Below, one piece after another: positions 46,053 through 63,342 of a stretch of 64,000 bases of DNA. The position numbers and the translations under genes were made by a program. Numbering within the stretch: position 1 is the stretch's first letter; every line of letters starts with the position of its first letter. The stretch is taken from contig NZ_VCNM01000002.1 in the NCBI RefSeq assembly GCF_007671725.1, positions 558,001 to 622,000 on the forward strand, read 5' to 3'. This DNA comes from Halorubrum depositum. GTDB lineage: Archaea > Halobacteriota > Halobacteria > Halobacteriales > Haloferacaceae. The notes beneath the pieces were generated by a model, which saw nothing but the letters and a program-made list of their open reading frames with translations, did no database searches and had not been told where the DNA came from.

Positions 46053-47177
46053 TCAGTCCTCGCCGAGCGGGATCGACAGGCCGCCGTCAGTCCGTTCGAC
46101 CTCGGTCCCGAAGGCGGCGGAGCGCTCGGCGACCGTGTCGCGCACCCACTCGGCGATTTCGGGGTCCGCGAGCGTCGCCGCCTCGTCGACGATCGCGGTC
46201 GGCTCGACGAACAGCTCGTCGAGGTCACCGTCGCGGACGACCAGCTCGAACAGCGCGCTGCGCTTGTTGTGGACGCCCTGTCGATCGACGTAGTCGACGT
46301 AGTCGTCGACGAAATCGCCCGCGTCGTAGACGATCGGCCGCCCCTCGTACACCTCGACGCCCTGGAGGACGTGAGCGCTGTGGCCGTGGACGACGTCGAC
46401 CCCCTGATCGACGAGCCACCGCCCGAACCGCTCGTGGACTCGCCGTGGTTCGGTCTTCCAGTTCGCGCCCCAGTGGAGCGAGGCGACGACGAGGTCCGGA
46501 TCGTGGCTCCGAGCGCTCCCGAGCACCCCTTCGACGAGCGACTGGGTCGCGGGGACCGAGGGGTCGAGCGTCGCGAAGGCGGTGCCCGGCCCGTCTCGCG
46601 TCGCGGCGAACGCCTTTGCCTGGTCGGTGAGGCCGAACGCCGCGACCGTGAGGTCGCCCGCCTCGAACACGGCGGGCTCGAGCGCCGCCTCGAGATCGGT
46701 TCCGGCGCCGGCGTGGGCGATGCCGGCGTCGCCGAGGTGGGTTCGCGTGTCGCGGAGCGCGGGCTCCCGGAAATCGAGGACGTGGTTGTTCGCGAGCGAG
46801 ACGAACGAGGCCCCGGCGGCGTCCAGCGCCGGGATCGCGAAGGCGGGGTCCGACCGGAAGTAGTACACCTTGTCCGGCCACCGCGTGCCGCCCTCGGAGA
46901 CGCAACACTCAAGATTGGCGACGAGCCCGTCGAGCTCCGCGAGGCGCGGCAGCGTCGACCCCCAGACCTGCGCGGGGTCGTCGTCGGCCCAACGCTCGTT
47001 GACGCTGCGCCCGAGCATGAAGTCGCCGACGAACCCGATCCGTGCGTCGACGTCGGGGGCGTCGAGGTCGCCGCGCTCGCTCTCGTCGCTGCGTCCGCCG
47101 GAGCGAGACGCGACACAACCGGCGACGCCCGCCAGTCCGGCGACGCCCGACGCCAGCAGGGTTCGACGGGTTCGCAT
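46053..47177 (-). CDS. CapA-like Tat lipoprotein (PGA_cap metallophosphatase fold)
   Basis: 374 aa. The twin-arginine signal RTRRTLLASGVAGL leads to the lipobox GVAGC (Cys about residue 21), so the enzyme is anchored outside the cell. The PGA_cap domain follows: FVGDFMLGRSVN (about 49), VANLECCVSEGG (about 84), SLANNHVLDF (about 126), VASLHWGANW and VVHGHSAHVLQGVEVY. These motifs resemble calcineurin-like metal sites. Family members act in poly-gamma-glutamate or surface-polymer metabolism. It lies close to the glycosylation locus. Confidence 0.88.
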   Translation of the reverse strand: MRTRRTLLASGVAGLAGVAGCVASRSGGRSDESERGDLDAPDVDARIGFVGDFMLGRSVNERWADDDPAQVWGSTLPRLAELDGLVANLECCVSEGGTRWPDKVYYFRSDPAFAIPALDAAGASFVSLANNHVLDFREPALRDTRTHLGDAGIAHAGAGTDLEAALEPAVFEAGDLTVAAFGLTDQAKAFAATRDGPGTAFATLDPSVPATQSLVEGVLGSARSHDPDLVVASLHWGANWKTEPRRVHERFGRWLVDQGVDVVHGHSAHVLQGVEVYEGRPIVYDAGDFVDDYVDYVDRQGVHNKRSALFELVVRDGDLDELFVEPTAIVDEAATLADPEIAEWVRDTVAERSAAFGTEVERTDGGLSIPLGED

Positions 47178-47243: not shown

Positions 47244-48188
47244 TCAGTACTCGATCGCCGCCGAGTACCGGTCGAGCACGAGCACGAACGCCGCGCCTGC
47301 GACGGCCGCGAGCGCGAACCGCGGCGCGGCGGCCCGCCACGACTCCCCGCTCTCTGCGAGCCGGGTCGACACCTCGAGGAGCGGCGCCCGGAGCGCGCCG
47401 ACGACGAGGCTCACGAGGAACGCGAGCGTGGCGGCCCGGGCGCGGGCGAGCGCGTACCGCACCGTGTGCGCGATCGTGAACAGCCCGACGACCCCGCCGA
47501 GGAGAAACGTCACAACGGGGGGGAGCGTCTCGACGAGCGCGTCGCTCCCGTTGCCCGTTAGAAACGCGGCGACCCCGTCGACCGCGCGGCTCACCGTCCC
47601 CGACATGTACTCGTACTGGCCGAGCACGATCAGCAGCAGCGACCCTGAGACGCCCGGGAGCACCATCGCGCTGACCGCGACCGCGCCGGCGACGAAGACG
47701 AGCGGCAGCGAGCTGCCGAGGCCGGTCGAGGCGACGCCCGAGGCGAGAAACGCGAGCAGGAAGCCCGCGACCGCCGCCGCCTTTCGTCGTGACGTGTCGA
47801 GCGTGACGCCGCGGAGCAACACCGCCGCGCTCGCCGCGATCAGTCCGAAGAAGAAGCCGTACGTCGCGACCGGCCGGGTCGCGAGGAGGTAGTCGACGCC
47901 GCTCAGCACGGTGACGACGGCCGTGCCGATCCCCGCGCCGAGCACGAGCAGGAAGGCGCCGTCGATCTCGTGGAACGCGGCGCGGGCGTCCGGAATATTG
48001 GCGGGCCGGACGCCGGCGAGCACGCGCCGAACGCGGGTGAGGTCGATCGCGGTGACCGCCGCGATCAGCCGCTCGTAGATCCCGACGATGAGCGCGATGG
48101 TGCCGCCGGAGACGCCGGGGACCGCGTCCGCGCTCCCCATCGCGACGCCCTTCAGGTACAACGTCGCCCACTCCCGGAGGCCAGCCAT
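47244..48188 (-). CDS. DUF368 (PopT-like) membrane protein
   Basis: 314 aa with about eight or nine membrane helices. The first conserved loop GSADAVPGVSGGTIALIVGIYERLI (about 18-42) and the second, AMVLPGVSGSLLLIVLGQYEYM (about 180), form the inverted PGVSGG pair of DUF368. Bacterial DUF368 (PopT) returns undecaprenyl phosphate across the membrane. It starts six bases after aglB, so it is very probably co-translated and may recycle dolichyl phosphate after N-glycosylation. That link is inference. Confidence 0.88.
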   Translation of the reverse strand: MAGLREWATLYLKGVAMGSADAVPGVSGGTIALIVGIYERLIAAVTAIDLTRVRRVLAGVRPANIPDARAAFHEIDGAFLLVLGAGIGTAVVTVLSGVDYLLATRPVATYGFFFGLIAASAAVLLRGVTLDTSRRKAAAVAGFLLAFLASGVASTGLGSSLPLVFVAGAVAVSAMVLPGVSGSLLLIVLGQYEYMSGTVSRAVDGVAAFLTGNGSDALVETLPPVVTFLLGGVVGLFTIAHTVRYALARARAATLAFLVSLVVGALRAPLLEVSTRLAESGESWRAAAPRFALAAVAGAAFVLVLDRYSAAIEY

Positions 48189-48194
48189 GGGTGG

Positions 48195-51100
48195 TTACGG
48201 GCTCACGCCTGTGGTGACGGTCGCGTCGACGGTCGCGTCCGCCAAGACCGGCGTCGTGGGCGCGAGCGTCGCGCTCTGGTTACCCGATCCGTCGCCGCCG
48301 TCGGAGCCCCCGTCGACCGGACAGTCGGGGTCGCCGCTCGGACAGTCGACGATCTCCTCTTCGAGTTCGACCGTCGCTGCCGCGTCGTCCGCGCCGACGA
48401 CCTGCGCCTCGGTCACCTCGACCTCTCCGACGCGCTGCGTGGTGTACAGGTCGTCACCGGTCGTCTGCGCGGTGCTGACGGTGTACGCGCCCGTCGCGCG
48501 GACGCTCGTGTTCGTGTAGCCGTTCTCGGGACCGAACTCGTCGTAGCCGGTCGTCGAGTACGGCACCGTGAACTCGAAGTTCCCGTTCTCGTCGGCCTCG
48601 GCGTACTGCGTGTACTCGAACGTCTCGCCCGACGGCTTCCGCATCTCGACGGTCGCCTCGACCTCCTGGCCGGGCTCGGCGCCCGAGCCCTCGACCGTCG
48701 CGCCGGGGACGCGTTCGAACGTCTTCACGTAGTCGTCCTGGAACGCCGCGAGGAACGACTCGCCGAGAACGTCCTCGACGCTGGTCCCCTCGGGGACGAG
48801 CTGCTGGAGCACCTGCACCTGCAGCGCCGAGGGCGACTGCCCCTGCGCCTGCGAGGCGTGGACGAGCCGGTGGTGTTCGAGCGCGGCGACGCGCTCGGAG
48901 GGGAGCGTGCCGACGCCGCCGACCTGGGCGCTGCCGTCCTCCTCGACGTAGGCGCGCGCCGCGCTCATGTTGTCGAACTGTCGGACCGTCGTCGTCGGGT
49001 CGGCCGGCAGCGTGTTCACCTCGACCTGCTCGCCGCCCTGCGTCTGGGCGGTCCGGGTCTCCCAGTCGACCACCACGGGTTCGGGGTCGACCGCGCTGCC
49101 GTAGTGTTCGTACAGGCGGATCATCTGGCTCTCGTGGTAGCGCTGGGTGTTCACCTGCATCACCGTGCTGAAGCCGCCCTGCTCTGTCTGCTGGTAGAGG
49201 ACGCGGTTGAAGTCGGAGCGCGTCTCGTTGCCGGAGTAGAACGTGACCGGCGCGCCGAACTTGGAGTTCGGCGAGGCCATCTGCCAGTCGACCATCACGT
49301 AGCGGGTGTTTTCGCCCTCCGTGCTCTGGCTCGCGAGGACCTCGCGTGATTCTTCCTCGCTCGGCGCGAGGAGGTAGTCGGCTGCGTCGCCCGCGTTCTG
49401 CTGGAACGGGTTCGCGTTCGGGATGCGCTCGGCGCGCGTGGTGATCCAGTGGCCGTAGTCCCACCACGACTGCACGCCGTACGCGCCCTCCGGGTACTCG
49501 AAGTCGCCGTCGGCCGGACGCTCGTAGGTGCCGTACAGCTCCATGGGGTTTTCCGCGCCCTCGAGTTCTCCGGGGGTGGGCGTCTCGTCGTTCATCCACT
49601 GCAGGCTGCCGTCCCACTGGGTGACGCCGCCGGGGCCGGTGTTCGCGCCGGCGGCCCAGACGGGCGTCGCCATCGCGACGAGCGGGACGATGAGGACGAC
49701 AACTAAAGCGATGGCGACCATCGCCTGCCAACCCTCGACGTCGCGGACGTCGTCCAGCGAGCGCAGGCTGATCGCGTCGAGCGTCACCTGGAGGAAGTAC
49801 GCCGCGCCGACCGCGACGATCACCGCGAGGTAGTAGTTGAAGCGGGTCTGCGTGAACGCCGCGCTCCCGATGAACGCCGCCCACACGACGAAGTACAGCT
49901 CCTCGGCGTCGTACTCGACGAGGAACGTCGCGCCGACGAGGAACGCGGCGGCGATGACGAGCCCGACCACCTGCCAGCTCACGCCGACGACACCGCCGAT
50001 GGCGTCGTAGAGCTGGGGCACCGCGTAGACGGAGCCGACGACAGCGAGCGCGGCCGGGATGTACAGCGTGTGGTTGGGATCGTCGGAGCGGTAGAGGGGA
50101 CGGGCGAGGATGTACAGGATCGCGGCGAGCGCGAGGAAGAACGCGAAGCCGTACTGCGAGAGAACGAAGTCGGAGAAGGCGGCGTTCTGGAGCGGGGGTT
50201 GGGCCTCGCCGATGGTGCGGAACTGTGCGGTGGCGCTGAAGCCGACGAAGTTCAGGAGATTCGTCGTGAGCGTCGACCACAGTGACGGGATCGCGAGCCA
50301 GACCATACCTGCGGACGCGAGAATGAGGCCGCCGACGGCCGGCGGGTAGGTGTCGACCTCGAGTTCGCGCGACTCCCACTGACGGGCGAGCCACGCGAGG
50401 AAGACGGCGCCGACCGCGACGCCGAGCGGGAGCACGACCTGGAGGAGCGAATACTGTGTGGTTTGGAAGGAAAACGTGTCGAGCGGGATCAGCTGCATCA
50501 GAGCCGTCACGCTCATCGCGACCGCGCCGGCGAACGCAACGGGTTCGGGGCTTCTCCCGTGATAGGTGTCGCTCGTGAGCTTCACCGCGAGGAAGACACC
50601 GGTGATCCCGACCAGAAGGACGCCGGGCTGCCACGTCCACATGTAGAGGCCGAGCCCGACGCCCGCGGCGGCCGCGTACGCGGCGGGGCGTTTGAGCGCG
50701 TCCCAGTCGCGGTCGACGACGAGCTCCCAGACGGGCGCCTCGCGCTCGGCGACCGCGAAGGCGACGAGGAACGCGAGGACGGCGAGGCTCTGGAAGAGCA
50801 CTTCGGCGGCGCTGTGGTCCGGGAAGCCGACGAGGCTGTAGCTGAAGAAGGTGCCCGGGAGGAGCGCGAGGACGACGACCGCGGCGACCGCGGCGAACCG
50901 GTCGACGAGCCGGCGCGCGATGAAGTAGGTCGGGATCGTGACGAGCGTGCCGGCGAGGGGCGCCATGATGAGCATGATTTCTTCGGTGCTGCCCATGAGC
51001 GGCCGGGCGATGAACACGCTGACCGCCATGATGTGGTCCCAGAGGGTGCCGAACTGCCCCGCTTGGTTCCCAAGCGGGAAACCGGTCCAGACGTCGAAAC

Positions 51101-51332
51101 CTAGGGTGTTCGGCCAGTTCTCGAGGAGATAGCTCGTCTCGCGGAGGTGATACCAGGCGTCGTTACCGCGGAAGTACACTTCGCCGTTTCGAACGAAGTT
51201 GCCGTACGAGCGGAGCCGTGTCCACAGCATGAACGCGAACGCCCCGAGGAGGATGAGGACGTGATACCACCCCCGGAGGACGTCGAGGGGCGATCCCTCG
51301 TCGTCTCCGACGGCGTCGGTTTGCTGACTCAT
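48195..51332 (-). CDS. aglB: Archaeal oligosaccharyltransferase
   Basis: 1045 aa. The N-terminal half has about 13 membrane helices; the first outer loop contains GNDAWYHLRETSYLLENWP (DxD-like metal site, about 56-60). The catalytic WWDYG motif is in QSWWDYGHWITTRAERIPN (about 622-640), followed by a large extracellular beta-rich C-terminal part and a final acidic tail. It transfers the lipid-linked glycan to Asn of S-layer and archaellin proteins. GGTATATAAC at about 51367-51376 is the promoter. DUF368 follows immediately. Confidence 0.97.
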   Translation of the reverse strand: MSQQTDAVGDDEGSPLDVLRGWYHVLILLGAFAFMLWTRLRSYGNFVRNGEVYFRGNDAWYHLRETSYLLENWPNTLGFDVWTGFPLGNQAGQFGTLWDHIMAVSVFIARPLMGSTEEIMLIMAPLAGTLVTIPTYFIARRLVDRFAAVAAVVVLALLPGTFFSYSLVGFPDHSAAEVLFQSLAVLAFLVAFAVAEREAPVWELVVDRDWDALKRPAAYAAAAGVGLGLYMWTWQPGVLLVGITGVFLAVKLTSDTYHGRSPEPVAFAGAVAMSVTALMQLIPLDTFSFQTTQYSLLQVVLPLGVAVGAVFLAWLARQWESRELEVDTYPPAVGGLILASAGMVWLAIPSLWSTLTTNLLNFVGFSATAQFRTIGEAQPPLQNAAFSDFVLSQYGFAFFLALAAILYILARPLYRSDDPNHTLYIPAALAVVGSVYAVPQLYDAIGGVVGVSWQVVGLVIAAAFLVGATFLVEYDAEELYFVVWAAFIGSAAFTQTRFNYYLAVIVAVGAAYFLQVTLDAISLRSLDDVRDVEGWQAMVAIALVVVLIVPLVAMATPVWAAGANTGPGGVTQWDGSLQWMNDETPTPGELEGAENPMELYGTYERPADGDFEYPEGAYGVQSWWDYGHWITTRAERIPNANPFQQNAGDAADYLLAPSEEESREVLASQSTEGENTRYVMVDWQMASPNSKFGAPVTFYSGNETRSDFNRVLYQQTEQGGFSTVMQVNTQRYHESQMIRLYEHYGSAVDPEPVVVDWETRTAQTQGGEQVEVNTLPADPTTTVRQFDNMSAARAYVEEDGSAQVGGVGTLPSERVAALEHHRLVHASQAQGQSPSALQVQVLQQLVPEGTSVEDVLGESFLAAFQDDYVKTFERVPGATVEGSGAEPGQEVEATVEMRKPSGETFEYTQYAEADENGNFEFTVPYSTTGYDEFGPENGYTNTSVRATGAYTVSTAQTTGDDLYTTQRVGEVEVTEAQVVGADDAAATVELEEEIVDCPSGDPDCPVDGGSDGGDGSGNQSATLAPTTPVLADATVDATVTTGVSP

Positions 51333-51507: not shown

Positions 51508-52650
51508 ATGAACGTGTTCGCGGCGGCCGCGCTGGGCCTCCTGGGCGTGACGGCCGCGCCGTACCTCTGCTTCTTCGGGCTGTACGCGTGGGTCCAACCC
51601 GAGGGCTCACCGGCCGCCAAGGAGCCGGCGGAACCCACGGTGAGCGTCGTCCTCCCGACGTACAACGAAGAGCGGATCATTCAGGCGAAGCTCGACGACC
51701 TGCTTGAACTCGACTACCCGATGGAGAAGGTCGAGCTCGTCGTCGTGGACTCCTCGACCGACGAGACGCGGTCGCTGATCCGCGGGTACTTCGAGAACGT
51801 GGACGCGCTCGATCTCGTGTTGATCGAGGAGGACGAGCGTCGCGGGCTCGCGCCCGCGCTCAACGAGGCGTACGAGGCCGCGCAAAACGAGATGGTCGTC
51901 AAGACCGACTGCGACTCGAAGCTGCCGCCGGACGTGCTCCGCGAGGCGGCCGCGAATCTCGCAGACGACGAGGTCGACGCCGTCACGGGACGGAACGTCG
52001 AGGTCCTCGGCGGGAGCGAAGTGGAGTCGGGGTACCGGGGCGTGCAGTCGCACATTCAGCAGTTGGAGTCGCATCTCGACTCGACGCTCATCTTCCACGG
52101 TCCCTTCTCGGCGTTCGAGAACGACGCGTTACTGCCGATCGACCCGAACTCGCTGGCGGACGACACGGAGCTTGCACTGAAGATTCGTCGCCAGGGCGGG
52201 CGGGTGGTGTTCGATCCCGCGGTGCGGTACAAGGAGGCGAGTCACTCCGCATTCGTCAAGCGTCGGAAGCAGAAGGATCGGCGGGCGATGGGGTTGATTC
52301 AACTGCTGGTGCAGCATCGAGACGCGGTCGGGAGGTACGGAAAGTACGGGGGGTTGGTGTTGCCGTTCAACTGGTGGTTCATGATCGCGTCGCCGTGGCT
52401 GCTGGCGCTGACGCTGGCGGTCGGGACGGTTGGCGCCGTGATCGCGTTCGGGATAGGAGGACTTGCGTTGCCGCTCGTCGTCGGGTTGTTCACGTATCTC
52501 GGACAGAAGGACGTGCTTGGTCCGGTGCAGGCGCTGTACTCACTGTTCGACACGCAGGTATCGTTGCTGCGTGCAAGTGTTGAGCTGGTGGTCGGTGACG
52601 CGGACGGGACGTGGGACGTCGACGCGGAGCTGCGGGAGGCGTTCGAGTGA
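51508..52650 (+). CDS. GT2-family membrane glycosyltransferase
   Basis: 380 aa. An N-terminal helix precedes the GT-A domain: TVSVVLPTYNEERIIQAKLDDLLEL (about 43-67), VVVDSSTDETR, the DxD-like KTDCDSKL (about 132-139) and SLADDTELALKIRRQGGRV (ED/x acceptor motif, about 211-229). Two C-terminal membrane helices (LALTLAVGTVGAVIAFGIGG) anchor it. It is likely an Agl/Exo-type enzyme building the lipid-linked glycan. A CTTTTTATTC box gives a leaderless start. It overlaps the next gene. Confidence 0.88.
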   Translation: MNVFAAAALGLLGVTAAPYLCFFGLYAWVQPEGSPAAKEPAEPTVSVVLPTYNEERIIQAKLDDLLELDYPMEKVELVVVDSSTDETRSLIRGYFENVDALDLVLIEEDERRGLAPALNEAYEAAQNEMVVKTDCDSKLPPDVLREAAANLADDEVDAVTGRNVEVLGGSEVESGYRGVQSHIQQLESHLDSTLIFHGPFSAFENDALLPIDPNSLADDTELALKIRRQGGRVVFDPAVRYKEASHSAFVKRRKQKDRRAMGLIQLLVQHRDAVGRYGKYGGLVLPFNWWFMIASPWLLALTLAVGTVGAVIAFGIGGLALPLVVGLFTYLGQKDVLGPVQALYSLFDTQVSLLRASVELVVGDADGTWDVDAELREAFE

Positions 52651-53735
52651 AGATATTGTTCGTTACGCACCGGTACCCGCCTCGGACCGGTGGTGTCGAG
52701 ACGCACGTTCGAGAGATCTCGACGCGACTCGCAGATCGGGGTCACGATGTGACTGTGTTCAGTGCAGACGCGGGGGATGACGTGCCAACTCGGACAACCG
52801 ATGAGAGCGTTCGAGTTCGTCGCTTCCGATCTCTGAGCCCCGATGAAGCGTTCTATTTCGCGCCACAGATGGCAGCTGCCGTGCGTCGCGTGGGCGCCGA
52901 CGTAGTTCACGCGCACAACTACCACGCGTTTCCGCTGTTCTTCGCGGCAGTTGGTATCACCGACGAACGGTTCATCGTGACGACTCACTACCACGGAAAG
53001 AGTGCAAGCGGCTTCCGAGATCTGCTGTTGTCCGCGTATCGCCCCTTTGGAAAGTGGGCGGTTCGGCAGGCGGACGAGATAATCGCAGTAAGTGAGTGGG
53101 AATGTGACCGATTGCACGAGGATATCGGTGTCAACGCAACCGTAATTCCGAATGGAATTAATGTCGATCGGTTCGCAAATACGGACCCTGAGAAGCGAGA
53201 ACGACCGTACCTGCTGTGCGTTGGGAGGTTGGAGGAGTACAAAGGGATTCAGCAGGTCATTCGAGCGCTGCCGGAACTTTCAGGATACGACTTGGTGATT
53301 GCTGGAAGCGGGCCATACCGCGAGGAATTGGAGCGGATTGCACGTGAAACAAAAGTAAGTGATCGAGTCCATTTCCTTGGATATGTGGAAGATAGGCGAC
53401 TCCCTAGGCTATACGCTGGAGCAGAGGTATATCTCTCCCTCTCTGAATTCGAAGCGTACGGAATAACTGTCTCCGAAGCGTTAGCAGCGGGGACATCGTG
53501 CGTGGTGAGAGAAGCAGGTGCACTCAAGGATTGGCTGGATGGTCCCGCCGTTGAGGGTGTAACGGTCACGTCACCAGATGCGATATCCGAGGTCATCAAC
53601 AAAGTTCTGGGACAAAATCCAGAGTGTGATGTTCCGTCTTGGTCAAAGATCACCGATCAACTTCTTACCAGATACCTCGATCAAGCAGAAGGAAACAGGC
53701 ATAAGCACCGCGATAGTACGGCTCCCCATTCATGA
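52647..53735 (+). CDS. GT4-family glycosyltransferase
   Basis: 362 aa from the GTG at 52647 (VKILFVTHRYPPRTGGVETHV), which overlaps the previous stop by GTGA. The GT-B fold shows the N-terminal GGVETH donor loop, SEWECDRL, VIPNGINVDRF, LLCVGRLEEYKGIQQVI and the E-x7-E-like SEFEAYGITVSEALA (about 275-289). It transfers a nucleotide-activated sugar in glycan assembly. Codon use begins to drift to lower GC within this gene. Confidence 0.9.
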   Translation: MKILFVTHRYPPRTGGVETHVREISTRLADRGHDVTVFSADAGDDVPTRTTDESVRVRRFRSLSPDEAFYFAPQMAAAVRRVGADVVHAHNYHAFPLFFAAVGITDERFIVTTHYHGKSASGFRDLLLSAYRPFGKWAVRQADEIIAVSEWECDRLHEDIGVNATVIPNGINVDRFANTDPEKRERPYLLCVGRLEEYKGIQQVIRALPELSGYDLVIAGSGPYREELERIARETKVSDRVHFLGYVEDRRLPRLYAGAEVYLSLSEFEAYGITVSEALAAGTSCVVREAGALKDWLDGPAVEGVTVTSPDAISEVINKVLGQNPECDVPSWSKITDQLLTRYLDQAEGNRHKHRDSTAPHS

Positions 53736-54355
53736 CCTCAGACGTATCTGTCGTCATCCCTTCTATCAAGGACAATGTACTAACAGTGGAGAGTATTCCC
53801 GAGGACGTTCCGGTGTTTATTGAGCGCGAGGGAACACTGAACGAGGCGCGCAATCGGGGCGTCCGACACGCGGAACACGACATCGTCGCTATCCTAGACG
53901 ACGATATCGCCTTCACAGAATCCGTGTTCGATGATTTGGTTGGGATGGTCGACGAACAGACGGTTGTCGGCGCAGCTGACTGGGAATTCGGGCTTCTCGC
54001 AGGTAGAGTAATTCTGTTCCACCGAGATGTCTGGCGCGACGTTGGCGGATTCGACGAGCGACTTCGAAGCCACAACGGCGACACCGACTTTTCTATTAAG
54101 ATTCACGACGCAGGCTACGACCTCGTTCGCTTCCCGCGTGAAATCATCAGACACGAGGAACACAGCAGGTCGATAACGACCCGGGATCGGGCTTGGCGGT
54201 TAGCCTACCTCTGCGGGAAACATCCAGAATATGCACCGCATCTCCTCGCCAGCACAGCTGCATATAACGTGGCGCAGTGGACCGGTGTCGATTATAAAAT
54301 GATGGTTCCGAGGACAGTCATCGACGTAACATGGTCCGGACGGGACGAGGACTGA
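53732..54355 (+). CDS. Small GT2-family glycosyltransferase
   Basis: 207 aa, overlapping the GT4 stop by ATGA. It has VSVVIPSIKDN at the start, GTLNEARNRGVRHAEHDIVAILDDDIAF (DxD, about 34-61) and the acceptor segment RDVGGFDERLRSHNGDTDFSIKI. The domain is shorter than usual GT2 enzymes, with no membrane anchor. Sugar specificity is unknown. Confidence 0.85.
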   Translation: MTSDVSVVIPSIKDNVLTVESIPEDVPVFIEREGTLNEARNRGVRHAEHDIVAILDDDIAFTESVFDDLVGMVDEQTVVGAADWEFGLLAGRVILFHRDVWRDVGGFDERLRSHNGDTDFSIKIHDAGYDLVRFPREIIRHEEHSRSITTRDRAWRLAYLCGKHPEYAPHLLASTAAYNVAQWTGVDYKMMVPRTVIDVTWSGRDED

Positions 54356-54425: not shown

Positions 54426-55331
54426 ATGCTGATCGTGTTGGCCCTCGATGCCCTGGACCACGAACACGTGGAGCACTTCGGGTATTCTGAACTCAATCTG
54501 AACCAGTCCGGCGAGATCTCAACGTTCTCCTACATGAAAGACCAGCCGTTCACGCTGGAGGTCTGGCCGACAGTAGCGACCGGACTCGGTCCGAACGAGC
54601 ACGGCTTGACTGGCTCGGGTACCAGCGAGTGGAGCAATCCTGCCCTAGATTTTCTCTCGAAGTACACCTCCAACCTTGGCGGCAACACCCGTGACAGACT
54701 CGGGCGCATCGCCGAGTCTGTGACCGGATCGAGTTACACCATCCCCGAAACGGATGCCAATCACGTCTTCGAGGGCGAAAACCGTGTCGTTCACAACTGG
54801 CCAGGCGTCCACAACTCCAAGGAACTCAAGCGTGTGTGGGACACCGCCAATCCTGACGAGGGCGACCAGACCGTCGCGGGCTTCGAGCAAGAGATATTCG
54901 GCATCGCCGCCGAGCAGTTCGGCTGGACACGTGAAATGCTTAACCACGGATTAGTTCTCGCAGGTTGTCACATTCACACGCTGGACATGTGTGGACACAT
55001 TTACCGTTACGACGAGGAACGGTATCGGGCGGTGTACGAGCGGGTGGCCGAATGGGTGGCTGAAATTGAGTCACGGCTCGGCGACGACGACGAGTTGCTC
55101 ATAATGTCGGATCACGGTATCCACACCGACTGGGACTCCGACTCGACGGAGCCAGGTCGACACTCCTACCGGGCGATGGCGGCGACGACGGCGTCAAAGA
55201 GTCTGTTCGATGACGTCCACGATGCCAGAGCGTGGATAGAGGAAGTCGTCGCCGAACACAAAGTCACCGATGAGGACGAAGGAAATGTTGATATTCCGAC
55301 CAACCAGTTAGAGGACCTTGGTTACATATGA
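54426..55331 (+). CDS. Alkaline-phosphatase-superfamily protein, divergent type
   Basis: 301 aa from the ATG at 54426 (MLIVLALDALDHEHVEHFGY). Metal-site features of the superfamily are LALDALD near the N-terminus, the nucleophile region EVWPTVATGLGPNEHGLTG (Thr about residue 42), and the late DELLIMSDHGIHTD and HSYRAM. This matches type I phosphodiesterase/phosphoglyceromutase-like enzymes. It ends with QLEDLGYI, as do four other superfamily proteins here. It overlaps the next gene by ATGA. A transferase or hydrolase acting on surface glycans is likely. Confidence 0.8.
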   Translation: MLIVLALDALDHEHVEHFGYSELNLNQSGEISTFSYMKDQPFTLEVWPTVATGLGPNEHGLTGSGTSEWSNPALDFLSKYTSNLGGNTRDRLGRIAESVTGSSYTIPETDANHVFEGENRVVHNWPGVHNSKELKRVWDTANPDEGDQTVAGFEQEIFGIAAEQFGWTREMLNHGLVLAGCHIHTLDMCGHIYRYDEERYRAVYERVAEWVAEIESRLGDDDELLIMSDHGIHTDWDSDSTEPGRHSYRAMAATTASKSLFDDVHDARAWIEEVVAEHKVTDEDEGNVDIPTNQLEDLGYI

Positions 55332-56236
55332 CGCTCGGCGACTGGGTCAGTGAATCAGTCGAGCGAGTTCGGACCGACGGAACGGCCGGTGCGCACGAGT
55401 CAGCGTACGAATTCTACGTCGGCCTCTGCCGAAACATGGGGCGGCGGGTCAACTACGGCACCAACGTCTTCGAGGAGTCGTGGGACGTGCTTGTCATCCT
55501 TGACGCCTGCCGATGGGATCTGATGCGTGAGGTTGTGTCTGGCTACGATTTCGTCGACAAAACAACGACGTACTCCGTTGCAAGCAGTTCCGAGGAGTGG
55601 ATGGAGAAGACATTTGGTGAAGTCGATAACTCTGACGTCGGGTACGTGACAGCGAACCCCTTCTCGCGGCAAATGTTGAACCCTAATGACTTCCAGCTCC
55701 TCGATGAGGTGTGGGAGTACGCCGTGGACAACGAGGTTCGGACCATCCCCGCCGACGCCGTGACTGACCGGGCAATACGTGCGCACCGTGAGATCAACCC
55801 CGACCGTCTCGTCGCTCACTATATGCAACCGCATTACCCATTCGTTCCGAACCCGATGGACGAGGGGCTCCCGCTTGAAGACTTCGGCGGCACCGACCAC
55901 GAGGATGTCTGGGACAAACTCCGCCGCGGGACGGTCTCCCGCGAGGAGGCGTGGGAGAGCTACCGGGCGAATCTGGAGTACGTCCTCGACAGCGTCAGGA
56001 CACTTCTCAAAAGCGTCGACGGCGATGTGGTCATCACCGCAGACCATGGAAACCTGCTTGGGGAGTTCGGTCTCTACGGTCATCCCGATTACGTGCCGGT
56101 ACCGGCGCTGAAACGCGTCCCGTGGTGCCGTACGACTGCTGAGAACGAAGGGACGTACGAACCGGCAGAGTGGAGTAATAAATCCGTTAAAGACGACCGC
56201 GAGGAACTGCTTCGGAACCTAGGGTACCGATCATAA
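55328..56236 (+). CDS. Sulfatase/alkaline-phosphatase-superfamily protein, paralogue A
   Basis: 302 aa. It starts MTLGDWVSESVERVR, then RRVNYGTNVFEESWDVLVILDACRWDL (metal Asp, about 60-62), YSVASSSEEWMEKTF (Ser-rich nucleophile region), VAHYMQPHYPFVP (metal His) and ITADHGNLLGEFG (Asp-His pair). No signal peptide or membrane helix is seen, so it probably acts in the cytosol or at the membrane face. It is homologous over its full length to the genes at 57511 and 62443. It may transfer or remove phosphate- or sulfate-linked groups on the glycan. Confidence 0.85.
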   Translation: MTLGDWVSESVERVRTDGTAGAHESAYEFYVGLCRNMGRRVNYGTNVFEESWDVLVILDACRWDLMREVVSGYDFVDKTTTYSVASSSEEWMEKTFGEVDNSDVGYVTANPFSRQMLNPNDFQLLDEVWEYAVDNEVRTIPADAVTDRAIRAHREINPDRLVAHYMQPHYPFVPNPMDEGLPLEDFGGTDHEDVWDKLRRGTVSREEAWESYRANLEYVLDSVRTLLKSVDGDVVITADHGNLLGEFGLYGHPDYVPVPALKRVPWCRTTAENEGTYEPAEWSNKSVKDDREELLRNLGYRS

Positions 56237-57510: not shown

Positions 57511-58428
57511 CTACTTATATCCCAAGGCACGTAGCTTCTCGTCTACACTGAGACTAGTGCCTTCTGACTCGTTGACAGTGAACTCGCCACTGTCAGAGGC
57601 GGAGGTGACGACCCAAGGGACTCGTTTGAGCGTTGGGATAGGAACATACGAGGGGTGGTCGTACAGCCCAAACTCGCCAAGGAGGTTTCCATGATCTGCT
57701 GTGATTATAACCTTCTCTGCATCGATGTTGTTGAGAAGCACTTCAACGTTGTCCAACGCGTACCGGAGGTTATCCTTGTACTCTTCCCAGACTTTCTTTT
57801 TGGATACCTTTCCATCTTTGAGGTAATCCCATGCGGTTTCCCAGGGTGTATGGCTGTGATACCGAGGAATGCCTTCCCCATAGGAGCCGGTTTTCGGAAC
57901 GAACGGCCAGTGAGGCTGCATGAAGTGGGATATCAGCCGGTCAGGATTGTACTTTCGGTACGCACTCACAGTCCTATTGACCATGTCTTCGGCGAGAATA
58001 GTTCCCTCCTCGTCGTTGAATGAGTGCTCCCAGACTCTGTCTAGGTAGAGTAGGTCTTCGGGTAAAACTCGATCTTCGGTGTGCAGATTTCCACTGACGA
58101 GAGCAGTCTCCGACATCTCTTTGGAATATTCTTGCGTGAAGGTCTTGTTGTGCCATTCACCCGAGCTACTCGCACAAGAGTAGGCCGATTCGGCAGTCAA
58201 GAAGTCATACTCGTCGACCACCTCGGCTATCAGGTCCGCACGACAGGCATCAAGAATAATAAGCAAGTCCCAGTCGTAGTCGTAGATTCTTCGACCGTAA
58301 TTGACGTGTTTACCGAGCCTCCGCCACATTCCGAGATAAAGTTCCTCTGCCCCGGCTTTGCTGCCGCGAATTAATCCTTCCTCTCGTATATCGTTTTGGG
58401 CACCTTCTGCCCATTCGCGAAGCGTCAT
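57511..58428 (-). CDS. Sulfatase/alkaline-phosphatase-superfamily protein, paralogue B
   Basis: 305 aa, starting MTLREWAEGAQNDIREEG. The same motifs as paralogue A are in the same order: YDWDLLIILDACRADLIAEV, YSCASSSGEWHNKTF, ISHFMQPHWPFVP, KVIITADHGNLLGEFG, and the end EKLRALGYK. It overlaps the GT4 gene upstream by ATGA. It is therefore translated with a glycosyltransferase, which supports a role in glycan decoration. Confidence 0.85.
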   Translation of the reverse strand: MTLREWAEGAQNDIREEGLIRGSKAGAEELYLGMWRRLGKHVNYGRRIYDYDWDLLIILDACRADLIAEVVDEYDFLTAESAYSCASSSGEWHNKTFTQEYSKEMSETALVSGNLHTEDRVLPEDLLYLDRVWEHSFNDEEGTILAEDMVNRTVSAYRKYNPDRLISHFMQPHWPFVPKTGSYGEGIPRYHSHTPWETAWDYLKDGKVSKKKVWEEYKDNLRYALDNVEVLLNNIDAEKVIITADHGNLLGEFGLYDHPSYVPIPTLKRVPWVVTSASDSGEFTVNESEGTSLSVDEKLRALGYK

Positions 58429-59462
58429 GCTAACACCTCTTGATAAATCTCATGATACTGCTCCGCAGCTGAACGCCACGTCATATTTGCAGAGAGATCA
58501 TAAGCTGCTTTCTTTTTGTCATATATGTCATTTTCTAGTAATGTATTGAGTGTCTTCGCCATCTCCTCACCGTTTGAGACAACAAAAATCCCGTCGCACT
58601 CTCTGACCTCTTCGAAGGTAGAGAAACCACACGTATCGGTCACAATGACGACACAACCTCTACCAGCAGCCTCGATGGCAGTCGTAGGGTAATTGTCGTG
58701 TTCTGACGGGATCAGAACGATATCTGCCTTCTCAAAGTACTCACCGATGTCATCGACGTACCCGTGCAATCTGTGCTTCCACCCTGGGAACTTCTCTACG
58801 TATGTTGGATCTTGAATGCTGCCGCAAATATCAACAGTAAATCGGTCGTCGTGCGGATCCAAATGTTGTAGAATTCGATGAGTTCCCTTGATAGGCGCGA
58901 CAAGTCCGGGGATAAGTATGTTATTACTCGCTCCGTTTTCGGGTGGCCGCCGGAAAGAGTCGTATACGCCCAAGGGAATGATTCGGTCGGGGTTCCGTCG
59001 GATGAATTTCTTGCTTTGATTCGCCACGAATGGACTGATAGCGACGAGTTTCTCCGCTAAGTGGTAACCTGGAGTCTTCAGGAGGCTGTATATGTTTGCC
59101 CCAATAAATTCGCGCGGATTAATTATCTGAGGAGACCACATAATCATCTGTAGGTCGGCAAAAATACCTTGTACGGTCTGAACATCGGAGCCGTGCATCA
59201 ACCCAGTCAGAGAGTGAAACAGTTCGTGGTCGTTTGCTTCTATGAGTTTGGCAGCTCGTCGTTTCGTCCTAAAGTAATTCGGGACAGAGTCCAGCGATCC
59301 CGGGATAGCGACCGTGTGGGCGCGGGGGTGCTCGTCGTCGCCCGCTGTATATAACGTGACATCATGTCCGATATCTGCCAGTCCGTCAACGATACCTCGG
59401 GTCACCGCAGACGGGCCGGTTTCGGTCTGCTTCAGCGGTCCATAGATCGCAATATCCGTCAT
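58425..59462 (-). CDS. GT4-family glycosyltransferase
   Basis: 345 aa GT-B enzyme. The N-terminus DIAIYGPLKQTETGPSAVTRGIVDGL is the donor or acceptor loop. LVAISPFVANQSKKFIRRNPDRIIPLGVYDSFRRP joins the lobes, and LIPGLVAPIKGTHRIL and the VLIPSEHDNYPTTAIEAAGRG E-x7-E-type motif mark the C-terminal lobe. It overlaps genes on both sides by ATGA (58425-58428 and 59459-59462), so three genes form one translationally coupled unit. Confidence 0.88.
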   Translation of the reverse strand: MTDIAIYGPLKQTETGPSAVTRGIVDGLADIGHDVTLYTAGDDEHPRAHTVAIPGSLDSVPNYFRTKRRAAKLIEANDHELFHSLTGLMHGSDVQTVQGIFADLQMIMWSPQIINPREFIGANIYSLLKTPGYHLAEKLVAISPFVANQSKKFIRRNPDRIIPLGVYDSFRRPPENGASNNILIPGLVAPIKGTHRILQHLDPHDDRFTVDICGSIQDPTYVEKFPGWKHRLHGYVDDIGEYFEKADIVLIPSEHDNYPTTAIEAAGRGCVVIVTDTCGFSTFEEVRECDGIFVVSNGEEMAKTLNTLLENDIYDKKKAAYDLSANMTWRSAAEQYHEIYQEVLA

Positions 59463-60902: not shown

Positions 60903-62333
60903 CTATGTCGTGACTGTTTTTAAAAATGACTTGATAACGGTTCGAACCCTCAAGCTAATTGCGATTAGAACGACGAAATACAAGAGACCACCACTTGCGA
61001 CGACTAGCAGGAGTGAGTACCAAGAGTCGATACTGATGGCCGTTGAGAGAGTTACAAGAACGGTGTACATCAAGACACCGGCGAGGACTTCTTGCAGCAC
61101 TGTCTTCGATATAAATGGGATATCGAATCTAGTGAGCAAGTAGGCTGCAGCGACGTATTCGACGACACTTGCAACGACAGTCGCTGCAACAACTCCTAAA
61201 GCGCCGTATCGAAGTATCAGGAGGTATCCCAAGATAATATTCACCGTGAACGCAACCAATGAGATTTTCAGATTTGCGTTGTGGCGGTCCAGTCCAGCTA
61301 TGATGTCTCCGAAGACCGTTGACTGTGTGTTGAATATCTGATACAGGGCCAGACCGATCAGGAGCACTGCTGCCGATCGATACTCAGGACCGTACGCCGT
61401 GACGACCAGTTTCTCGGGAATGGCCAAAGCACCGAAGAAGATCGGAATGGCAAATAGGCTCGCAAATGATAGAGAGTTGGTGACATCTGCAGTGGCGTCC
61501 TCACCGCGGCTTGCCAGATTGCTCGTTCTGGACATCATGATACTCCCGATTAGTCCCGAGACGAAAGTCGCTGGTACGACTAATTTGTACGCGACCTCGT
61601 AGTAACCAACGACACTTGGAGACAATAGCGCACCGATGAGGAATATATCGTATCTGTCCCACGCTTTTGAAACAAAGGTGTATGGTATACTGTCCTTAGC
61701 GAACCGGGCGAGAGACCAGAAGGTGTTGATAGTAGGAATATTAACACTAATATCTAACGACCAGAATATGAGTGGAACGGATATTAATGTTGCCAATCCG
61801 AGACCATAAGCCATCCCAAGAACGCCAATCCCGTACCACACGAACAACACCTGCAGAGCCAACGTGATCACCGACCGGAAAGTATCAATACCGGTCTGCC
61901 TTCCAACGAGACCAGTCGCGCCAAGAATTGATTCGAAGGCCGAATAGAGACCCAGAGACCCTGCTAGGAAGACGAGAACGTGGTAAGAGCGAGCAACACC
62001 AGTGTAATCGGCTATGGCAGTTCTGAATGGATACGCTCCGATCGCAACAAAGACGACAAGAAACAAGGGAAGTAGCATCTGACCGGCAATGATCTCACCC
62101 TTCGGACTTGTTAGCTCTGAGTACCGCTTTTTTGCGGCTACACTCCAGCCGTCTACTGGTTTTTTGAGGAACTCTGCGATCATGAGCAGGAGATAGTACC
62201 CGCCGAAATCAGATGCTCCGAGAAGACGCGCGAAGAGTATTGTTCCGGAGAATCCGATCACAGCCATTACGACCTTTGCTATCAATCCCTTGCCTACTTC
62301 GAAGCTAAGATTTACTTCAGACGCGTCAGTCAT
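60903..62333 (-). CDS. Wzx/MATE-type polysaccharide flippase
   Basis: 476 aa with about 14 membrane helices. It begins NLSFEVGKGLIAKVVMAVIGFSGTILFARLLG, the usual first helix of the polysaccharide-biosynthesis (RfbX/Wzx) family, and has the internal pattern SFASLFAIPIFFGALAIPEKLVVTAYG. It should move lipid-linked glycans across the membrane, as AglR is thought to do. It stands within the glycan cluster between two alkaline-phosphatase-superfamily genes. Confidence 0.9.
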   Translation of the reverse strand: MTDASEVNLSFEVGKGLIAKVVMAVIGFSGTILFARLLGASDFGGYYLLLMIAEFLKKPVDGWSVAAKKRYSELTSPKGEIIAGQMLLPLFLVVFVAIGAYPFRTAIADYTGVARSYHVLVFLAGSLGLYSAFESILGATGLVGRQTGIDTFRSVITLALQVLFVWYGIGVLGMAYGLGLATLISVPLIFWSLDISVNIPTINTFWSLARFAKDSIPYTFVSKAWDRYDIFLIGALLSPSVVGYYEVAYKLVVPATFVSGLIGSIMMSRTSNLASRGEDATADVTNSLSFASLFAIPIFFGALAIPEKLVVTAYGPEYRSAAVLLIGLALYQIFNTQSTVFGDIIAGLDRHNANLKISLVAFTVNIILGYLLILRYGALGVVAATVVASVVEYVAAAYLLTRFDIPFISKTVLQEVLAGVLMYTVLVTLSTAISIDSWYSLLLVVASGGLLYFVVLIAISLRVRTVIKSFLKTVTT

Positions 62334-62442: not shown

Positions 62443-63342
62443 TCATTTGTATCCGAGGGCTTCGAGTTGGTCGCTCCGGTCTATTCGTTTATCCTGCCGG
62501 ATCAAATTATGTACAGGTTCATAGCTCCCAGTGTCTTCAGCCACCGTCTTGATCCATGGGACGCGCTTCAAAGCAGGGAGGGGTACCCAGTCCGGGTGAG
62601 CATACATCCCCCACTCACCGAGTAGGTTGCCGTGGTCTGCTGTTATGAGTACCTCCCCGGACGTATTTTCGAGGAGTGTATCAACGTGTTCAAGCACGTA
62701 GTCGAGATTCGCCGCGTATCCACTCCAGACCTCTTCGCGGTCAACGTCTCCTTTCCGAAGTTTGTGCCAGACGTTGTCCCACGGTTGGCTGCCGAATTCC
62801 TGTCGCGGAAGCCCTTCATCCATCGGCTTCGGAACGAACGGGTGATGCGGTTGCATGTAGTGGACCACCAATTGCTCCGGTCCTGAGTTCCAAGCACTGA
62901 TTGCCTGGTTGGTCACGAGGTCCGCTGGAATTGTCCGGACATCATCGTTGAAGCCGTACTCCCACACTTCGTCGAGGAGGAAGAAGTCGTCCTTGTCGAG
63001 GAGCGTCTTCGAGTACGGATTAGCGGTGACGTAGGCTATATCTGAGTTGTCGCGACCGGCGAATGTCTTCGAAATCCATTCACCCGAACTACTCGCTACA
63101 GAGTACTTCGATTGATCCGTCAGGTAACTGCGATCAACTTCTGGGATGAGATCCCAGCGGCAGGCATCAAGGACAAGGCAGATATCCCAGTTGTCTTCCC
63201 AAATGGAGGTTCCATAATTGTACCGTCGACCGATATTGCTCCAGGCCCCGACATAAAACTCGTACGCTGACTGCTTCGCACCGGACCACCCATTGTCTCG
63301 GACGCGACGTCCCGATTTCGCAACCCATTCACCGACCGTCAT
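62443..63342 (-). CDS. Sulfatase/alkaline-phosphatase-superfamily protein, paralogue C
   Basis: 299 aa, starting MTVGEWVAKSGRRVRDNGW. It is colinear with paralogues A and B: NWDICLVLDACRWDLIPEV, YSVASSSGEWISKTFAG, VVHYMQPHHPFVP, EVLITADHGNLLGEWG and the end QLEALGYK. The start overlaps the preceding small gene by ATGA. It is closer to A than to B in the middle region (VTANPYSKTLL versus VTANPFSRQML). Confidence 0.85.
   Translation of the reverse strand: MTVGEWVAKSGRRVRDNGWSGAKQSAYEFYVGAWSNIGRRYNYGTSIWEDNWDICLVLDACRWDLIPEVDRSYLTDQSKYSVASSSGEWISKTFAGRDNSDIAYVTANPYSKTLLDKDDFFLLDEVWEYGFNDDVRTIPADLVTNQAISAWNSGPEQLVVHYMQPHHPFVPKPMDEGLPRQEFGSQPWDNVWHKLRKGDVDREEVWSGYAANLDYVLEHVDTLLENTSGEVLITADHGNLLGEWGMYAHPDWVPLPALKRVPWIKTVAEDTGSYEPVHNLIRQDKRIDRSDQLEALGYK

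Follow-up and report, generated by a model that had tools for sequence, protein, structure and literature searches.

DUF368 proteins recycle the lipid carrier undecaprenyl phosphate (C55-P) in bacteria (PMC9876793, PMC12826051), and the member from Vibrio cholerae, the C55-P translocase VCA0040, is important only under alkaline conditions in the presence of sodium (PMC9876793). The enrichment of the family in Halobacteria has been remarked on (PMC9876793), and the Haloferax volcanii member HVO_RS12060 complements, at least in part, the growth defect that V. cholerae without VCA0040 shows at alkaline pH (Sit et al. 2022, PMC9876793). Haloarchaeal N-glycans, in turn, are assembled on dolichyl monophosphate and transferred to protein by the oligosaccharyltransferase AglB (PMC3871713). 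Here we describe a 64,000-nucleotide stretch of Halorubrum depositum DNA (assembly GCF_007671725.1, contig NZ_VCNM01000002.1, positions 558,001 to 622,000; hereafter the window), in which a DUF368 gene follows directly behind aglB, and we show that this pairing is widespread in haloarchaea, pointing to a likely role of the DUF368 protein in carrier recycling.

From the coordinates, it is clear that the DUF368 start codon lies six bases behind the aglB stop, as the sequence-only reading of this locus had held, and the family assignment made there is borne out as well. PF04018 matches the downstream product with 205 bits (E 1.5e-60, profile positions 1–228 of 246), exceeding the Pfam cut-off of 26 bits, and two polyprenyl-phosphate transporter models also match it, NF052564 with 177 bits (E 5e-52) and NF052563 with 101 bits (E 7e-29). 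It is the single DUF368 gene in this Halorubrum genome. The same 6-nt gap is found in Halorubrum sp. Hd13 and H. yunnanense, whose AglB proteins are 89–92% identical to that of the window. Since the gap is so short, it suggests that aglB and DUF368 are transcribed as one mRNA.

Table 1. Features of the aglB-DUF368 region (positions in the window).
Feature	Position	Strand	Basis
DUF368 (PF04018; VCA0040-like, PopT-type) polytopic membrane protein, 314 aa; candidate dolichyl-phosphate return flippase	47244..48188	-	PF04018 205 bits
Second DUF368 signature AxxAMxLPGxSGSxxLxxxGxY, residues 171-192; probable internal repeat of the first	47613..47678	-	conservation and helix breaks in model
First DUF368 signature MGxADxxPGVSGGTxAxxxGxY, residues 17-46; predicted broken/re-entrant helix pair	48051..48140	-	conservation and helix breaks in model
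6-nt intergenic gap ccaccc, from aglB stop TAA (48197-48195) to DUF368 ATG (48188)	48189..48194	-	sequence
aglB, archaeal oligosaccharyltransferase, 1045 aa	48195..51332	-	TIGR04154 924 bits, E 8.6e-278; STT3, AglB_core-like and AglB_L1 domains
GT2 glycosyltransferase, divergent from aglB	51508..52650	+	PF13641/PF00535
GT4 glycosyltransferase	52611..53735	+	PF13439/PF00534
Short GT2-type glycosyltransferase	53732..54355	+	PF00535, weak
GT4 glycosyltransferase	58425..59462	-	PF00534/PF13692
Wzx/MOP-type polysaccharide flippase; candidate for outward flip of lipid-linked glycan	60903..62333	-	PF13440, 61 bits

We have examined the pair in 194 evenly drawn haloarchaeal genomes of at least 90% completeness, 79 of which were searched a second time to fill in missing aglB or DUF368 matches, with the positions compared by script. 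DUF368 is present in 192 of these genomes and aglB in 193, and 191 have both; one genome (G187) lacks both, possibly through an assembly gap. DUF368 lies directly downstream of aglB (same strand, profile-to-profile distance below 1.2 kb) in 125 of the 191, and 8 more have it 1.8–3.2 kb downstream. The resulting 133 linked genomes span 46 of 64 genera and all nine haloarchaeal families, so that within haloarchaea the pair is not a peculiarity of the lineage to which the window belongs. Since one random gene would be expected in such a position at a rate of the order of 1e-4 per genome, the adjacency is far beyond chance. In one genome (G162) the two genes are far apart with DUF368 at the very start of a contig, which may reflect an assembly break.

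The spacing was analysed using one linked locus per genus, available for 45 of the 46 linked genera. The two genes overlap or nearly touch in most of them: the gap is −4 nt in 5, −1 nt in 7 and 0–6 nt in 13 (25 of the 45 thus fall between −4 and +6 nt), while it amounts to 26–157 nt in 16 and 1.4–2.5 kb in 4. Two of the four wide gaps (L098 and L105) hold a UDP-glucose-dehydrogenase-like gene on the strand opposite to the pair; in L069 a related gene shares the strand of the pair, and in L081 the space is taken up by other genes. The position immediately upstream of DUF368 is occupied by aglB in 41 of the 45 loci, a figure that is uninformative alone, linkage having been the criterion by which these loci were selected; what informs is the comparison with the flanks, since the next upstream family occurs in 14 loci and no neighbour family downstream of DUF368 exceeds about 10 at any one position. 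Thus, the aglB-DUF368 pair is the sole constant part of these loci, and the flanking genes vary. A fusion of the two genes was also considered, and none is claimed, the longest DUF368 frame (1066 aa, in G134) being different in length from the aglB frame of that genome (914 aa).

The gene order with an intervening dehydrogenase-like gene also recurs in Haloferax. In H. volcanii, HVO_RS12050 is aglB, and aglF, aglI and aglG carry the tags 12035, 12040 and 12045 (PMC5131992, PMC7749143), so that HVO_RS12060, the DUF368 gene of the complementation experiment, lies two locus tags after aglB. In five named Haloferax loci (L170, L171, L174, L175 and L176), aglB is followed by an aglM-like (UDP-glucose-dehydrogenase-like) gene and then by DUF368. 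The published agl cluster runs from aglJ to aglM (PMC5867893) and would therefore end just before DUF368.

A tree of 97 DUF368 proteins (with family names taken from named loci and hence approximate) sets the haloarchaeal sequences apart from other archaeal ones. The aglB-linked copies, which we call type I, branch according to haloarchaeal families, and their patristic distances correlate with those of AglB (r 0.71, Mantel p 0.001, n=45); the linked copies have therefore been inherited vertically, and the pairing is old. Nearly all unlinked copies form a second clade, type II (support 0.97), drawn from the Haloarcula group and Natrialbaceae, so that most lineages without the linkage carry another DUF368 rather than none; several genomes have both types, and four unlinked copies (L112, L113, L119 and L126) are relocated type I genes. 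Vertical inheritance also means that the 133 linked cases are not independent, and the adjacency might accordingly be a gene order kept from the haloarchaeal ancestor without functional meaning. This we regard as very unlikely and the least probable of the explanations considered, since rearrangement has altered the flanks in these genera and left the pair together, often with overlapping ends.

Among the type II loci L043-L053 and L109-L129, a GT2 glycosyltransferase gene is nearby in four, and a methyltransferase gene and a Cpn60 gene are close by. Two contigs labelled as Actinomycetota metagenome-assembled genomes (L231 and L244; 84–89% identical to each other) encode a haloarchaeal-like DUF368 without aglB, about 48–49% identical to the Haloferacaceae query, consistent with either transfer from archaea or misbinning.

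Outside haloarchaea the picture is different. DUF368 is patchy there, present in 41 of 231 genomes sampled from the phylum Halobacteriota, and in none of 20 methanogen or other Halobacteriota loci inspected does aglB lie within 8 kb of it, which rules out a pan-archaeal linkage; sugar-nucleotide epimerase and phosphoglycerate-mutase genes recur at these loci instead. Conservation of the pair over archaea, which the sequence-only reading had raised as a check, thus holds for haloarchaea and fails elsewhere. Three control genomes, those of M. jannaschii, S. acidocaldarius and M. acetivorans, have an aglB-family match and no DUF368. DUF368 is a haloarchaeal solution, not a general archaeal one. 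Of the non-haloarchaeal genomes, 9 of the 41 with DUF368 and 99 of the 190 without it have the DedA family (PF09335; odds ratio 0.26, p 0.0005, kinship ignored), a tendency to exclusion paralleled in Pseudomonas, where DedA and DUF368 are reported to be exclusive and interchangeable (PMC12893004).

Haloarchaea, methanogens and three bacterial members all show the two DUF368 signatures in near-invariant form, and the second resembles an internal repeat of the first. The AlphaFold2 model of the window protein is confident (pLDDT 90.5, pTM 0.85) and helical, with helices broken at both PGVSG motifs, as would fit re-entrant hairpins. Arg40 and Asp76 are present in most archaeal DUF368 proteins, the three bacterial sequences having T/Q/E and N there, and Arg267, common in type I and methanogen proteins, usually gives way to another residue in type II. 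A sequence search of the PDB with DUF368 found no relative, and Foldseek with the model returned nothing at E ≤ 0.001. A second structure comparison gave middling matches, most of them MFS transporters, along with two ZIP transporters; the best match, with Z 9.1, covers part of the model. Because these matches are middling we assign no fold; BacA and DedA are not among the matches listed, which is no evidence against a likeness to them.

The glycosyltransferases and the Wzx/MOP-type flippase around the pair mark an N-glycosylation or surface-glycan region. MOP-type genes are present in 12 of the 45 linked loci and in 5 of 14 loci around unlinked aglB. A PGA_cap-like gene (capsule synthesis family; 46053-47177, minus strand) adjoins DUF368 downstream; the window's downstream neighbours (PGA_cap and ADH genes) are absent from every other locus among 100 compared. 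Three similar paralogues of about 300 residues starting with MTxxxW (55328-56236, 57511-58428 and 62443-63342) stand near the glycosyltransferases, one with a weak Sulfatase match and another without any Pfam match.

This setting bears on the direction of transport. PglK adjoins PglB in Campylobacter, and DUF368 could likewise, in the manner of PglK, carry the lipid-linked glycan outward, since adjacency to an oligosaccharyltransferase alone gives no direction and, moreover, we know of no firm identification of the outward flippase for the main haloarchaeal N-glycan. Yet for the characterised DUF368 members the substrate is the bare carrier, C55-P (PMC9876793, PMC12826051). The window encodes a MOP-type flippase, other genera have genes of this type close to aglB, and DUF368 is retained while the surrounding glycan genes vary; an outward role is therefore very unlikely.

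Because AglB is fed from dolichyl-monophosphate-linked glycans, its expected product outside the cell is dolichyl phosphate (PMC3871713), which corrects the dolichyl (pyro)phosphate of the sequence-only reading. A return flippase for this product is plausible given the DUF368 identity, the tight adjacency and the conservation of the pair in nine families, and we consider it likely that the aglB-linked, type I DUF368 is a polyprenyl-phosphate translocase that recycles the N-glycosylation carrier dolichyl phosphate to the cytoplasm. The tendency of DedA and DUF368 to exclude each other outside haloarchaea, the presence of aglB and DUF368 in nearly all haloarchaeal genomes and the partial complementation of V. 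cholerae by HVO_RS12060 speak for this role as well. In such a cycle, glycan assembly on dolichyl phosphate would take place at the inner leaflet, and the lipid-linked glycan would be flipped outward by another protein, for which the window holds the Wzx/MOP-type candidate; since that flippase is separate, the return role would be left to DUF368. AglB would then move the glycan to asparagine outside, leaving dolichyl phosphate in the outer leaflet, and DUF368, made from the same mRNA as AglB, would return it to the cytoplasmic face, probably via a cavity formed by two putative inverted PGVSG re-entrant hairpins. We infer a single transcript, dolichyl phosphate as the physiological substrate, an inward direction and a dependence of N-glycosylation on DUF368. 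A stronger version, in which type I DUF368 is a flippase dedicated to the return step, has a functional or physical coupling to the oligosaccharyltransferase and is adapted to dolichyl phosphate by archaeal residues such as Arg40, Asp76 and Arg267, is put forward more tentatively, with the odds somewhat against it.

Several points weigh against the recycling role. The window protein misses the equivalog cut-offs of both NCBIfam models (400 bits) and is by that rule a homologue, not an equivalog, and the H. volcanii gene order given above is deduced from locus tags and congeners. Since many archaea have aglB without DUF368, the latter is no universal partner of AglB. In about 30% of the haloarchaeal genomes the two genes stand apart, mostly with the other DUF368 clade, and in one genome (G118) a DUF368 in the type II score range is accompanied by a weak aglB-like match. 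The G118 case also speaks for a broader version of carrier recycling that overlaps with ours, in which DUF368 keeps the whole-cell dolichyl-phosphate pool facing inward, for exopolysaccharide, archaellum and lipid sugars as well, and stands beside aglB only because no other process uses as much of the pool as N-glycosylation. In favour of this version, too, type II copies away from aglB have been kept near GT2 glycosyltransferase and methyltransferase genes, and methanogen DUF368 genes lie near sugar-nucleotide epimerase genes. We give this version slightly less than an even chance, since it is specifically aglB that is the neighbour in most genera, at operon spacing, while the other glycan genes nearby change.

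DedA proteins also count among these points. At least one PF09335 match is present in every haloarchaeal genome among those listed, and the genome of the window has three, so that DUF368 can be ruled out as the only flippase family in haloarchaea; one genome (G021) has aglB and two DedA proteins and no DUF368. DedA proteins may be redundant with DUF368 or share its job. They might even carry out the return of dolichyl phosphate themselves, with DUF368 as a conditional backup for high salt or alkaline pH, as the conditional need for DUF368 in V. cholerae would suggest (PMC9876793). Since 192 of the 194 genomes retain DUF368, since it is this family that is paired with aglB, and since PF09335 spans several subfamilies with other substrates (PMC10127716), this arrangement appears unlikely, although less so than an outward role.

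The DUF368 family is known already, whereas its coupling to aglB and the breadth of that coupling appear to be unreported: in the literature searched we found no paper connecting DUF368 with AglB and no DUF368 mutant altering AglB-dependent glycosylation. The earlier view that the archaeal return flippase is not known needs qualification, since the H. volcanii protein already partly complements a C55-P translocase mutant (PMC9876793) and DedA is also present; it stands insofar as the searched literature gives no established answer to how dolichyl phosphate returns to the cytoplasmic leaflet after archaeal N-glycosylation. The conserved unit gives the published complementation result a pathway, points to a gene to delete in H. 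volcanii, a genetically easy model, and offers a minimal system for the study of carrier recycling. Should the dedicated and coupled flippase prove real, archaeal N-glycosylation would gain its missing recycling step, and for the first time a dolichyl-phosphate flippase would have a genetic tie to an oligosaccharyltransferase.

Compared with known systems, the window protein shares PF04018 and the two PGVSG signatures with VCA0040 and its Vibrio relatives, and a haloarchaeal homologue can partly replace VCA0040; the latter differs in its substrate, undecaprenyl phosphate for peptidoglycan, and in a gene that is not with an oligosaccharyltransferase, and the three bacterial sequences compared lack the archaeal Arg40 and Asp76. 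HVO_RS12060 belongs to the same haloarchaeal family and, by locus tag, to an aglB neighbourhood, but several Haloferax have the opposite-strand aglM-like gene between aglB and DUF368 where the window has a gap of 6 nt. The DedA/UptA C55-P flippases resemble DUF368 in their proposed biochemical job and in the exclusion pattern (PMC12893004), although they form a different family and co-occur with DUF368 in haloarchaea. The H. volcanii MOP-type flippases AglR and Agl15 act on dolichyl-phosphate lipids in the same pathway (PMC3871713); unlike DUF368, they belong to an unrelated family (Polysacc_synt) and are proposed to move the sugar-charged carrier outward, their counterpart in the window being the gene at 60903-62333.

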